Assembly (NCBI GenBank): GCA_944325545.1
Contig: CALVAM010000009.1
Location: 1-64,000, forward strand
Source: Candidatus Gastranaerophilales bacterium
Lineage (GTDB): Bacteria > Cyanobacteriota > Vampirovibrionia > Gastranaerophilales > Gastranaerophilaceae
Direction of reading: 5' to 3'
DNA: 64,000 nt
Below the pieces are notes generated by a model. That model saw only the letters and a program-made list of their open reading frames with translations, was not told the origin of the DNA and made no database searches. Shown here in pieces: positions 10,496 to 37,184 of the stretch. Within the stretch, counting starts at the first letter, position 1. Each line of letters opens with the position of its first letter. A program made the translations under genes and the position numbers.

Positions 10496-11188
10496 TTATT
10501 TATTGTTTTCAAGCCATTTTTTGTATAAATCAGGGCGGCGTTTTTTGGTTCTTTCTATTTTTTGAGAAAGTCTATATTCTTCAATTAACTTATGATTTCC
10601 TTTTAAAAGTACTTCCGGTACGCATAAACCTTTATATTCACGAGGCTTTGTATATTGAGGATACTCTAATAGCCCATCCGAAAAACTATCATCATGAGCA
10701 GATTCTATTTTTCCTAAAGTACCTTCTATTTTTCTGGAAACACTGTCAATTACACAAAGAGCAGGTAATTCTCCACCTGTTAAAACAAAATCTCCTATAG
10801 AAACTTCTTTAGGTTTTATAATTTCTCTTATTCTCTCATCAAAACCTTCATAATGACCGCATAAAATAATTATTTGATCATATTGTGCAAGTTCATTTGA
10901 CATTTTATCTAAAAATGGTTCCCCCTGAGGAGTCATCATAAGAGTAATACTATTTTCAAATTTATTTACCGCTTCATAAGCATCAATATAAGGTTGTGGC
11001 ATTAGTACCATGCCTGCACCACCGCCATATGGGGTATCATCAACTTTTTTATGCTTATCTAAGGTGTAATCTCTAGGATTTATAGTATTAACTTCTATAA
11101 TACCATCATCTTTTGCACGTTTCATTATACTAAAATCCATATGAGATTGAATTAGTTCGGGAAATAATGTTAAAACATCAAATCTCAT
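10496..11188 (-). CDS. trmD: tRNA (guanine(37)-N1)-methyltransferase
   Basis: This SPOUT-fold, knotted enzyme methylates G37 next to the anticodon, using S-adenosylmethionine, to prevent frameshifting. Diagnostic segments are the N-terminal R-F-D-V-L-T-L-F-P-E, D-D-T-P-Y-G-G-G-A-G-M-V, L-C-G-H-Y-E-G-F-D-E-R and S-I-G-D-F-V-L-T-G-G-E-L. At 230 residues it is of normal length. Its ATG overlaps the TGA of rimM in an ATGA arrangement, indicating translational coupling. Confidence 0.97.
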   Translation of the reverse strand: MRFDVLTLFPELIQSHMDFSIMKRAKDDGIIEVNTINPRDYTLDKHKKVDDTPYGGGAGMVLMPQPYIDAYEAVNKFENSITLMMTPQGEPFLDKMSNELAQYDQIIILCGHYEGFDERIREIIKPKEVSIGDFVLTGGELPALCVIDSVSRKIEGTLGKIESAHDDSFSDGLLEYPQYTKPREYKGLCVPEVLLKGNHKLIEEYRLSQKIERTKKRRPDLYKKWLENNK

Positions 11189-11700
11189 GACAAAAGACCT
11201 TCTAAATTATTAATCTGAATTTTTCTTTCTTTTATATCTACTGAGAGTACAATGGCTTTAACAAAAGGTACCAAGCAAATTTTTTTATCTAAATTTTTAA
11301 CTGAAAGTAAATCACTGGCACCATTATTTGAAACACCAACAACAGAGCCGACTTTAGTTTCTCCATCAAAAACATCTAGTCCAACAAGTTCATCAATTAA
11401 AAACTCATCCTCTTCTAAAAATTCTCTTGCAGTATCTTCTGTCACAAATAACAAGCAATTTTTGTAGACTAATATATCATTTAAAGAATCTATATTTTTA
11501 AATTTTATAATACCACATTTAGGAGTAAATCTTATTCTAACAATCTCCAAAAGTTTATATTCATTATCAATAAAAACATAAACTTCTTTTAAATGAGCTA
11601 AAAAATCTTCTCTATTTTTAGAATACCCAAGTTTTGCTTCTCCATGAACTCCATGGAAATTAATAATTTTCCCAACAGAAACAAAATTATTCTTCTTCAT
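11185..11700 (-). CDS. rimM: Ribosome maturation factor RimM
   Basis: RimM binds S19 and helps assemble the head of the 30S subunit. The start at 11700 gives K-N-N-F-V-S-V-G-K-I-I-N-F-H-G-V-H-G-E, the typical RimM beginning. The C-terminal PRC-barrel half has F-L-I-D-E-L-V-G-L-D-V-F and ends L-V-P-F-V-K-A-I-V-L-S-V-D. The frame is open further upstream to 11811, but that extension is low-complexity and reads through the 3' end of the preceding gene in another frame. The two genes overlap by 14 bases. The protein has 171 residues. Confidence 0.92.
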   Translation of the reverse strand: MKKNNFVSVGKIINFHGVHGEAKLGYSKNREDFLAHLKEVYVFIDNEYKLLEIVRIRFTPKCGIIKFKNIDSLNDILVYKNCLLFVTEDTAREFLEEDEFLIDELVGLDVFDGETKVGSVVGVSNNGASDLLSVKNLDKKICLVPFVKAIVLSVDIKERKIQINNLEGLLS

Positions 11701-12679
11701 TTTCTTTTTTCTTAGGCTTTCTTCCACGCTTAGGTTTTTCTTCTGCAATAGGAGCTTCTTCTGTATCAACAACTCCTTCTGGAGAAGAAACGTTAGAGGT
11801 TTCTTCGACATTTTCAGCTTTAGTTTCTGTCTTTACAGCTACAGGAACTTTTTCTTCATTAGAAGGTTTTGTGTGCTTAGCTACCATATAATCAGCTGGT
11901 TTATCAGCTCTATCTTCATTCCATCTATCTAAGCCCATTTGAGCACGAATTAATTTAATACCAACGTGAACTCTCCACTCGTCCATTTTTAATTGAGCTG
12001 CAATAATTTTATGGCAACCAATTGGTGGTAATGGCAATAAAGGTTCATATAAAGCTTTAATAGCCATCATTTGATCGGGTGAGATTGCCAATTTTCTTTT
12101 AGGGAAAGGTAATTTCGGCAACATCAACTTTTGACGTACTAAATTTATTCCAAAAAATACTTTTTGAGGTTCAATACCTAACTTTGCTCCGATTACTTCA
12201 TGAGCATCAGGATTAGGTAAAGGAAGCATCAATTTATATAATACTTCAATTTGTTCTAATTGTTCTTTACTAACAAGTAATGGTCTAGCTGGTTTAGAAG
12301 ATTTTTTCTGCATAGGACGTCTTTGTTGTGGTCTTGCAGATGCGTAATTATTCTTAAAGCCTCCTCTTTGATTATCATTTCTTCTTTGAGGATAACCGCT
12401 TCTATTATCTCTTCTTTGGTAGCCACCACCTTGTTGAGGTCTGTTATTATCTCTGCGTTGATAGTTATTATTAGCTCTATAACCGCCTTGTTGAGGTCTG
12501 TCATAACTTCTAGGACGTGATTCTGTAGAATATGAGCTATAAGAACTATAGCTTTGCATAGGTTTTCCGTCTGTAGATTCACTTCCTTTGTCTGCATATA
12601 GACAGTTAGGACAAATTACTCTTTTGGGGTTCTTAGTTTCAAACTCCGCACCACACTTAATGCACTTGTTTACATACAT
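11687..12679 (-). CDS. Zinc-ribbon, RG/Q-rich protein with duplicated helical domain (unrecognised)
   Basis: The family was not recognised. The 330-residue protein has four parts. A zinc ribbon (C6, C9, C23, C26) is followed by a disordered region at about 40-130 rich in R, G, Q, N and Y, with repeated Q-Q-G-G and Y-Q-R-R-D-N units. Two similar domains of about 55 residues follow, near 136-190 and 198-252; both contain L-Y-x-x-x-L-P-L-P and V-x-x-G-I-x-L-(V/I)-R. The acidic tail ends with a K-R-G-R-K-P-K-K-K element resembling an AT-hook. The RG-rich region and the position before rimM-trmD suggest an RNA- or ribosome-linked role, which is inference. It overlaps rimM by 14 bases. Confidence 0.85.
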   Translation of the reverse strand: MYVNKCIKCGAEFETKNPKRVICPNCLYADKGSESTDGKPMQSYSSYSSYSTESRPRSYDRPQQGGYRANNNYQRRDNNRPQQGGGYQRRDNRSGYPQRRNDNQRGGFKNNYASARPQQRRPMQKKSSKPARPLLVSKEQLEQIEVLYKLMLPLPNPDAHEVIGAKLGIEPQKVFFGINLVRQKLMLPKLPFPKRKLAISPDQMMAIKALYEPLLPLPPIGCHKIIAAQLKMDEWRVHVGIKLIRAQMGLDRWNEDRADKPADYMVAKHTKPSNEEKVPVAVKTETKAENVEETSNVSSPEGVVDTEEAPIAEEKPKRGRKPKKKENEEE

Positions 12680-12765
12680 AATAAAAGCCTCTTAACCAAA
12701 TTAAATAATAAAAAATTCACTACTTTAAAATATTCCTATCAATAAATAATAAATATGAGATTTAA

Positions 12766-12796
12766 TCAAAAAACTTAGAGTTGAAACTCAACTCTA
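12766..12796 (-). terminator. Rho-independent terminator downstream of the gene at 12845-13543
   Basis: A perfect 9-bp inverted repeat (TAGAGTTGA / TCAACTCTA, 12776-12796, 3-nt loop) is followed on the minus strand by a run of six T. It sits about 50 bases past the stop of the minus-strand gene starting at 13543. Confidence 0.65.
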
Positions 12797-12844
12797 CATA
12801 TGAATTATAATACAACTTATAAAAAAATGCAAGTAGTTAGAGTT

Positions 12845-13543
12845 TTATGAATGTATTCGAGCATTTTTATTCGTATTGTGATCTGCAATAGTTCCCATTA
12901 ACCAGCCTCCAAAGGCATAACTAACGGCTCCTGTAAGTATATGGGCTAGTTTAGAATTTTTTCCATTTTGCATGAGTGTTGCTACAATGCCACAACCAGC
13001 TCCTAATAGAGCTCCCCATTTACGTCCTTGATTTGATTCATAATAAGCTCTTCCTTTATTAGAAATAGCCACTCTATCTTGTTCTATTAAAGTTTTCTTT
13101 ATACCTTTTTGTCTTACTTGTTCAGCAGTTTCTTGAGCTTTTTTATTTCTTAAATGATCAACCAAGATTCCGCATCCAAGGGTTAACCCAGAAGCTATTA
13201 TTGCAAAAGGAATTGCATATTTTTTCAATCTTTGATTTCTTTTGTTTTCTTCTTTTAAAACTTCTTCAAAAGAATTTTCTATTCCGAACATTTTAAGAAA
13301 AGAATCTGCTTGTTTTTTCATTTCTGGGTTTTTAGTCACTTCTTCAATATTCTTATCTTGAGCTAAATCTTTTTTATTTATATTAGCAAGCCAAGTTAAC
13401 GCTGCAGGAACAGCCATAACTCCTCCTGCAATAGTTGCAGAATTAGATTTGTAATAAGGAGTTCCATTATCTGTTTTATCCCATTTTCCTTTAAAAGTCG
13501 CTTGATTACTTTGATTAACAATAGGATTAACAGCTAAGTTCAT
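12845..13543 (-). CDS. Hypothetical membrane-associated protein with N-terminal FKG motif
   Basis: The family was not recognised. The 232-residue protein carries A-T-F-K-G-K-W near residues 15-21, then a T-I-A-G-G-V-M-A-V-P-A-A-L hydrophobic stretch. A lysine-rich central region follows, then a second hydrophobic segment (Y-A-I-P-F-A-I-I-A-S-G-L-T-L-G-C-G-I-L-V). The glycine/alanine-rich C-terminus has possible membrane hairpins (L-L-G-A-G-C-G-I-V-A-T-L and G-A-V-S-Y-A-F-G-G-W-L). The start at 13543 has AAGG seven bases upstream and is preferred to the in-frame ATG at 13558. The gene appears monocistronic, with its own terminator. Confidence 0.75.
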   Translation of the reverse strand: MNLAVNPIVNQSNQATFKGKWDKTDNGTPYYKSNSATIAGGVMAVPAALTWLANINKKDLAQDKNIEEVTKNPEMKKQADSFLKMFGIENSFEEVLKEENKRNQRLKKYAIPFAIIASGLTLGCGILVDHLRNKKAQETAEQVRQKGIKKTLIEQDRVAISNKGRAYYESNQGRKWGALLGAGCGIVATLMQNGKNSKLAHILTGAVSYAFGGWLMGTIADHNTNKNARIHS

Positions 13544-13631
13544 AATAAGACCTTTCATTCTTTTTTATACAACTATGGTAATGTTTCTAAATTAGTAAAA
13601 TTGTTATATTTAAATCAAAAATTTACAAAAC

Positions 13632-27574: not shown

Positions 27575-27648
<74 letters not shown>

Positions 27649-36892: not shown

Positions 36893-36981
36893 TACATTCC
36901 CTTAAAATAAAAAATTATAATAAAACCGTACCACTACCTATCGAAATAATGTCAAATTGATTTTGTTTATAAAATCTACTT

Positions 36982-37010
36982 TTTAGAAAAATAACACCCG
37001 CAAGGGTTAT
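36982..37010 (-). terminator. Terminator hairpin at the 3' end of SRP RNA
   Basis: On the minus strand ATAACCC and GGGTGTTAT form a stem with a one-base bulge around a short loop (36991-37010), followed by a T-rich run. It closes the SRP RNA transcript. Confidence 0.65.
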
Positions 37011-37184
37011 CTTAGTGCTGCTATGTTTCCATCCTGACACGGTTCGATATCTTACGCCATTATTATCTAAATTATCAACAACCCTATAAACATAGGCAAT
37101 TTACCAATATCCCTCACAGTAGGCTCTGCACCTCGCTAAGCGTTCGAGTCAAGAGATCCGCTAAGTCCCCGTGGAGTACGGCAA
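36985..37184 (-). ncRNA. ffs: Signal recognition particle RNA, large bacterial type with Alu-like domain
   Basis: The RNA guides membrane proteins with Ffh. On the minus strand the S-domain apex reads GTGTCAGGATGGAAACATAGC: an AGG, a GGAAAC apical loop and AGCAGC, the symmetric and asymmetric bulges that bind Ffh. The 5' part has CCGTACTCCACGGGGACTTAGCGG and a second GCTTAGCGAGG, resembling the 5' pseudoknot Alu region of the long SRP RNAs of Bacillus and Cyanobacteria. The ends are estimated from an extended -10 at 37190-37198 and the terminator. About 200 nt, which is shorter than the 270 nt of Bacillus. Confidence 0.85.

Follow-up and report, generated by a model that had tools for sequence, protein, structure and literature searches.

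What kind of protein is encoded directly ahead of rimM and trmD at this Candidatus Gastranaerophilales locus, and can its unusual build be tied to a known fold and a probable function? Within the window, by which we mean the whole 64,000-nucleotide stretch of DNA that was analyzed, the gene lies where the initial annotation had placed it, at positions 11687–12679, on the minus strand, and its open reading frame (ORF) translates into a protein of 330 residues. Four parts can be discerned along this protein, these being a C4 zinc ribbon (residues 1–31), a predicted disordered basic stretch (residues 32–131), a duplicated core (residues 132–261), and a tail (residues 262–330). At its 3′ end the gene overlaps rimM (11185–11700, minus strand), which was identified by domain search and from related loci, and beyond it lies trmD (10496–11188, minus strand), identified by an NCBIfam match. 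In the longest rimM ORF the RimM domain does not begin until residue 44, which makes position 11700 the likely start of rimM, and thus the overlap runs from 11687 to 11700, the 14 bases reported at the outset being upheld when the rimM start is taken from these domain limits.

Predicted homeodomain-like units in the duplicated core

The earlier proposal of two copies of a helical domain of about 55 residues holds up well. Here, the two repeats aligned over 54 residues with zero gaps and a BLOSUM62 score of 97, as against 21.8 ± 4.2 (maximum 50) for 2000 shuffles, and the two repeat profiles matched one another with an hhalign probability of 98.6. The AlphaFold model of the core (pLDDT 78.6 and pTM 0.50) predicts two tri-helical units, with helices at model residues 14–25, 35–43, and 47–60 and at 77–90, 98–106, and 110–123 in a helix-turn-helix arrangement. 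In the numbering of the whole protein, unit 1 (residues 132–190; 12110–12286, minus strand), placed by sequence matches and the model, has predicted helices at 138–151, 159–167, and 171–185, and unit 2 (residues 195–253; 11921–12097, minus strand), placed by the model and hhalign, has them at 201–214, 222–230, and 234–248 and carries a DEWRVHV motif. The linker tripeptide KRK (residues 194–196; 12092–12100, minus strand) aligns in register with positions 3–5 of the basic N-terminal arm of homeodomains, and its K-R pair is invariant in a core alignment (A2) that sets the window protein beside 23 others chosen for breadth across the class.

According to the initial annotation the protein could not be matched to a family, and when searched whole it indeed gave zero matches above cut-off in Pfam and NCBIfam; matches to RDM3_C and PorB both lay within the low-complexity stretch and were disregarded. 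This verdict did not survive a profile search with the core alone, for which Pfam Homeodomain (PF00046) was the best family: with E allowed up to 10, it matched 22 of the 24 relatives searched, the lowest E-value being 3.2e-5. Four other families (DUF7657, DUF2680, Tex_N, and Bfc) were weaker, with E of 0.024 or more and at most six members each. Set against the curated PF00046 cut-off of 22.9 bits, the window core scored 17.1 bits and its unit 1 alone 12.5 bits, both beneath it, the core consensus 21.5 bits, and the relatives L062, L063, L064, L072, and L075 scored 19.2, 22.1, 20.6, 13.3, and 14.3 bits, respectively; among these bit scores, L066, with 23.1, was the one relative above the cut-off. 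The match of the window protein retains the hydrophobic positions 16 and 20, the arm, and the register of the family, yet ends before the WFxNxR signature. As controls, four shuffles and one reversal of the core gave no Homeodomain match (0 of 5), and among ten single items searched against Pfam, three (window unit 2 alone, L067, and L070) were without a homeodomain match. When 28 genomes were searched in six frames with PF00046, with E no higher than 1, the zinc-ribbon gene was not listed in any of them, and the matches listed elsewhere were all sub-threshold and of similar size (up to 17.8 bits); matches under the cut-off were found in 10 of 14 control genomes too. Sequence searches of the PDB gave weak rows only, the first for the profile being a homeobox protein (E 0.16) and the next two eIF3 subunit M. 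Using hhalign with a profile built from eleven homeodomain sequences, the two units scored 21.6 and 23.6 (probability 30 and 47) in a common register. By comparison, LuxR-type and sigma-4 controls scored 7.9–15.3, and the highest scores among 40 column shuffles per unit were 16.6 and 19.6. Taken on the sequences, a remote relation of the core units to homeodomains is suggestive, and homology falls short of proven.

Comparison of the models with known structures pointed the same way. For the core model, the Foldseek search of the PDB placed the DUX4 double homeodomain four times and a tandem engrailed within ranks 1–5 (E 0.03–0.15), followed in ranks 6–9 by homeodomain-containing POU proteins, and for the full-length model, double homeodomains stood in ranks 1–6 (E 0.10–0.28). 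DUX4 and other double homeodomain structures (PDB IDs: 7dw5, 5zfy, 6e8c, and 5z6z), which were thus the top rows for two separate models, share with the window protein two tri-helical units in tandem. The top five rows for the core model gave TM-scores of 0.28–0.32 and rmsd values of 10–22 Å over the pair, so the unit pairs are not superposable as wholes, and the linked domains may be free to move relative to each other. In the VIA structure search, by our own count, 32 of 50 rows were homeodomain proteins (Z 4.8–5.5), and rows for Lrp-type, biotin-ligase, and Myb proteins scored almost equally. A likeness between the homeodomain and bacterial helix-turn-helix proteins such as Hin has long been known, as a published account sets out (PMC4901127). 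A homeodomain-like helix-turn-helix fold for the core units is accordingly supported at the level of the models. Unlike DUX4, the window protein is bacterial, shares 17–19% identity with it at a TM-score of about 0.3, has neither Trp48 nor Asn51 in either unit, and bears an extra zinc ribbon and basic disordered stretch; a common helix-turn-helix arrangement is in any case not proof of common descent.

Asn51 provides the base contact of homeodomains. In units 1 and 2 of the window protein, the residues in the homeodomain register are I/I at position 16, Y/Y at 20, G/G at 48, I/I at 49, L/L at 51, and R/R at 53, and among relatives some have Ala at 48 and some Ile at 51 of unit 2. Set beside the hydrophobic core signature of homeodomains, which the same account gives as L16, F20, W48, and F49 with similar substitutes allowed (PMC4901127), Ile and Tyr at 16 and 20 are such substitutes, and Gly48 and Ile49 depart from it. 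With Leu (or, in unit 2, Leu/Ile) in place of Asn51 and Gly in place of Trp48 in both units, and Arg53 kept, classical base reading would be lost, and the core, judged by its residues, is not a canonical homeodomain. As far as we searched, the combination of a zinc ribbon, a basic disordered stretch, and tandem homeodomain-like units is new in bacteria, and the fold itself is of a known kind.

Zinc ribbon, disordered stretch, and tail

The C4 zinc ribbon recognized earlier at the N-terminus (residues 1–31; 12587–12679, minus strand) is borne out by its two CxxC knuckles (CxxC-x13-CxxC), in which Cys6, Cys9, Cys23, and Cys26 are conserved as metal ligands would be, being invariant across 38 aligned family proteins; the ribbon is ordered in the full-length model (pLDDT about 90), and the metal is predicted. 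Generic zinc ribbons (PhnA/YjdM, HypA, RPAB4, and Zn_ribbon_8) show the same spacing and two predicted strands, but against family profiles the window protein gave many weak zinc-ribbon matches and zero above a family's own cut-off.

After the ribbon comes the basic stretch rich in Arg, Gly, Gln, Asn, and Tyr (residues 32–131; 12287–12586, minus strand). Disorder is predicted by a pLDDT below 50 at residues 35–116 and 118–128 and over most of the tail in the full-length model, where the core units are mostly above 70. The composition of the basic stretch (R 17%, Q 12%, G 10%, N 10%, and Y 9%) makes the earlier term "RG-rich" a loose one: instead of the repeated RGG motifs of an RGG box, one RGG was found by eye in the window protein, and 28 of 29 genus representatives from the family have 0–4 RG/GR pairs. 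All 29 of these representatives keep a net charge of +10 to +16, at lengths from 76 to 213.

Most variable is the mostly acidic tail (residues 262–330; 11690–11896, minus strand), of which 6 of 29 family genera have almost nothing (6–9 residues). In the window protein it ends with KPKRGRKPKKK (residues 315–325; 11705–11737, minus strand) and then acidic residues. An AT-hook consists of an RGRP core with basic flanks; the window protein has RGRKP, and hence the AT-hook-like tail noted initially is a likeness and not the canonical motif. RGRP itself was found in 3 of 20 same-genus proteins (L011, L015, and L019) and also in L228, L075, and L076, and RGR occurs in the tails of 16 of 29 family genera, 1 of 14 loci from the order's other families, and 3 of 11 from the class's other families. 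With HMGA-type AT-hook proteins the window protein shares an AT-hook-like KRGRKPKKK adjoining an acidic end; it differs in having a single motif, no RGRP, and a tail that is missing in some genera. The comparison of tails and charges omitted L073 and L074, and L023, at a contig start, is without its N-terminus. Near the gene in another locus (L030:1798-2202, plus strand), we observed a protein, presumably a MerR-like regulator, that ends in an AT-hook-like RRGRKKSAK.

Distribution and conservation of the family

That the protein is real and unplaced, as first suggested, is confirmed to the extent that it belongs to a conserved family named in none of Pfam, NCBIfam, and PHROGs; among the titles listed in searches of open-licence literature, none has the family as its topic. 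The gene is present in 33 of 37 genomes of close relatives and in 140 of 146 of the order, including all 136 good ones (completeness of 90% or more, contamination of 5% or less) with a single match each. Across the class, 210 of 289 genomes matched the profile at E up to 1, among them 205 of 244 good ones, and one marginal match (G166, E 0.22), the sole one in family f8, was not counted as a member. At this threshold the gene was absent from the listed genomes of families f10–f13 and, within its own family, from one good genome (G306, 94% complete), and a second match each was seen in G038, G068, G279, G311, and G322. In the phylum sample, 176 of 386 genomes matched with E no higher than 0.1; the three matches from beyond the class (E 0.011 to 0.092) were treated as chance. 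Among public genomes, a relative is encoded in 412 of 423 stretches that fit the pattern, and for the best 80 of the 412 the informative records are mostly Candidatus Gastranaerophilales, Melainabacteria, or Cyanobacteria. Three records labeled "uncultured Acinetobacter sp." (L104, L111, and L113) carry the gene with 94–96% core identity and are probably mislabeled bins. In phages, plasmids, and viral contigs the core had zero matches, and against PHROGs the whole protein gave four weak matches (best E 0.011) and the core none; a phage or plasmid homology was therefore dropped.

Identity to the window core is 72–98% in a first alignment (A1) and 57–85% for the 23 others in A2, in which the mean column identity is 79% over 24 sequences of the class; six loci (L065, L068, L069, L071, L073, and L074) were left out of A2 when the motif filter missed their core. 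From 190 pairs among 20 same-genus loci, pN/pS came to 0.017 for the zinc ribbon, 0.085 for the core, 0.31 for the disordered part, and 0.47 for the tail, with synonymous sites near saturation. The family is thus real, conserved, and uncharacterized, and its ribbon and core are under strong purifying selection.

Gene neighborhood

Directly downstream of the gene, rimM was found in 79 of 80 related loci (the remaining one reaches a contig end), and in all 20 same-genus loci, the window's own included. The rimM-trmD pair follows in 24 of the 29 further genera that represent the family (exceptions: L078, L080, L208, L210, and L212), but stands beside the gene in none of 14 loci of the order's other families, three of which have no downstream ORF at all, and in none of 13 loci of the class's other families. 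L065, L069, L071, and L224 were not part of the neighbor count (core missed by the motif filter), and L065, L069, and others were left out of counts despite a clear family N-terminus. The gene order suggested initially thus holds within the family and not outside it, and a linkage confined to one family gives no evidence for a role specific to rimM. Translational coupling, earlier called probable, is plausible given the overlap and the 79 of 80 loci, though not as a general feature of the family's wider relatives. KhpA and RpsP, which the initial annotation named for this position, may share it, but the matches of the window protein include neither a KH nor an S16 domain.

Among the 29 family representatives, 11 have dtd and 8 have rlmN in one of the three ORFs preceding the gene; loci of families f3, f4, and f7 likewise carry dtd upstream. 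In G024, rplT precedes the gene as part of an upstream infC-rpmI-rplT; nusG follows it in two f14 loci (secE-nusG), gatB lies downstream in two other loci, and in the class's other families the gene is often beside serine dehydratase genes. NCBIfam confirmed dtd, rlmN, trmD, rplT, nusG, and a serine dehydratase subunit and gave no match for secE; secE, gatB, infC, and rpmI are putative identities assigned from their sequences. As far as gene order can tell, the gene is one often expressed near translation and RNA genes, rather than a partner of RimM. L225 and L222 encode, ahead of dtd and at the second position upstream of the gene, a large unnamed protein (652 and 671 residues, respectively), which we take to resemble motility-associated glycosyltransferase-like proteins.

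Leader and expression

In an alignment of 26 leaders (12 rows listed; L084 was left out for too little upstream DNA), a promoter-like region is kept in relatives, consisting of a −35-like TTGCAT (12827–12832, minus strand) and, after a 17-base spacer, a −10-like TATAAT (12804–12809, minus strand) that ends 124 bases ahead of the start codon. A small hairpin, GAGTTG/CAACTC (12776–12796, minus strand), sits where the transcript probably begins, with a stem-test p of 0.015 here; one relative has CGGTTG/CAACCG instead, and by our own count 12 of 20 sequences have such a stem in roughly this position, with only 3 of the 20 reaching 0.05 by themselves. Further along are a conserved element, TTGATTNAATCTCATA (12754–12769, minus strand), with the palindrome GATTNAATC, which in our estimation resembles known homeodomain sites, and a Shine-Dalgarno-like AAGAGG (12688–12693, minus strand) within the strongly conserved TTAAGAGGCTTTTATTATG. 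These conserved features suggest control of the gene's own expression. The element TTGATTNAATCTCATA has one perfect match in the genome, that being its own leader, and with up to two mismatches its pattern has 29 matches as against 15 for a mirror control, and hence we claim no regulon.

In several lineages, a stem GCAAGG/CCTTGC was seen by eye in the leaders, and it is not claimed here, as the stem test over 24 leaders gave a combined p of 0.36. Leaders L026, L027, L028, L029, L205, L211, and L227 have the form GCAAG(G/T) ... (A/C)CTTG(C/T), followed by a stretch with GGGG close to the start codon, by eye a possible switch, and non-significant in the test. Codon usage of the gene is ordinary (CAI 0.70, rank 12 of 58 ORFs, with 17 ribosomal-region ORFs as reference), which gives no sign of great abundance and leaves high expression unsupported.

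Probable function

The reading that we prefer, and to which we give about an even chance, is a housekeeping nucleic-acid-binding protein with tandem homeodomain-like units, found in Gastranaerophilales and in some of their non-photosynthetic cyanobacterial relatives. In such a protein, two predicted helix-turn-helix units, placed one after the other like DUX4's two homeodomains and with a suggested remote sequence relation to homeodomains, would bind nucleic acid by way of helix 3 and the basic arm; the basic disordered stretch could add non-specific electrostatic binding and perhaps clustering, and the zinc ribbon would dock on nucleic acid or a protein partner. For nucleic-acid reading speak the invariant Arg at position 53, a hydrophobic residue at 47, the basic arm, the kept net charge, and the AT-hook-like tails. 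As ligand, DNA is slightly favored over RNA, in which case the protein would be a nucleoid or transcription regulator that possibly controls its own leader. Against DNA, the neighbors point to translation rather than chromosome functions, and several genera lack the AT-hook-bearing tail. Since 27 of 28 relatives possess HU, the window protein would not simply be a replacement nucleoid protein, and that candidate role is unsupported. In this family, with its own promoter-like region ahead and rimM-trmD behind, gene order and overlap suggest that the levels of the window protein and of rimM-trmD may be tied.

Somewhat less probable, though a serious possibility, is an RNA-binding factor of translation or ribosome maturation, the idea put forward in the initial annotation, whose homeodomain-like units bind rRNA, tRNA, or mRNA with the help of the disordered stretch. 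In ribosomal protein L11, 23S rRNA is bound by a homeodomain-like domain, and this, the neighboring rimM-trmD, dtd, rlmN, infC-rpmI-rplT, secE-nusG, and gatB, the loss of Asn51 (which fits a non-canonical ligand), and the conserved leader all count for it. However, profile searches gave no RNA-binding family above cut-off, the nearest neighbors differ from family to family, which means no fixed partner, and the leader stem test across the order was negative. We consider it unlikely that the units have kept their fold and lost nucleic-acid binding, with helix 3 facing RNA polymerase or a ribosomal factor in a protein-interaction hub. Helix-3 positions 46, 47, and 51 (F175, F176, L180; V239, L243) are hydrophobic and nearly invariant, leaving room for a purely protein-binding role, to which the high conservation throughout the core would also be suited, but the basic arm, the invariant R53-like residues, the basic disordered stretch, and the AT-hook-like tails suggest nucleic acid.

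A non-functional gene or spurious ORF overlapping rimM has nothing in its favor beyond the missing annotation in the libraries searched, and it is refuted by the order-wide presence and purifying selection, as well as by a conserved reading frame and its own promoter-like region, to a degree that makes it scarcely credible. At the other extreme, an ancient bacterial family of true homeodomain homologues, forming essential DNA- or RNA-organizing condensates and confined to one class of non-photosynthetic cyanobacteria, appears rather improbable. Returning to the housekeeping nucleic-acid-binding protein that we prefer, its presence in every good genome of the order, with a core at least 57% identical in 23 class-wide relatives, makes it likely to be central to the biology of these bacteria. 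Should the core read DNA or RNA, the protein would be a housekeeping regulator of a new kind for these relatives of the cyanobacteria, and one on which to gauge how far the homeodomain fold and its tandem form extend into bacteria; were the homology true, bacteria would possess a close relative of a domain usually regarded as eukaryotic.

Other features of the window

Between cysE and the zinc-ribbon gene lies an unnamed protein of 237 residues (12845–13558, minus strand). Its identity in the same-genus loci L003 and L005 is 34–35%, as compared with 79–91% for its neighbors, and in the remaining same-genus loci, several of them cut short, tblastn gave no match; by these comparisons it is a fast-changing or often lost gene amid a steady neighborhood. 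The window also contains a bacterial large signal recognition particle RNA (RF01854, 96.6 bits) at 36926–37181 on the minus strand, and a tRNA-Arg(acg) at 27575–27648 on the plus strand is the sole tRNA found in its 64 kb.
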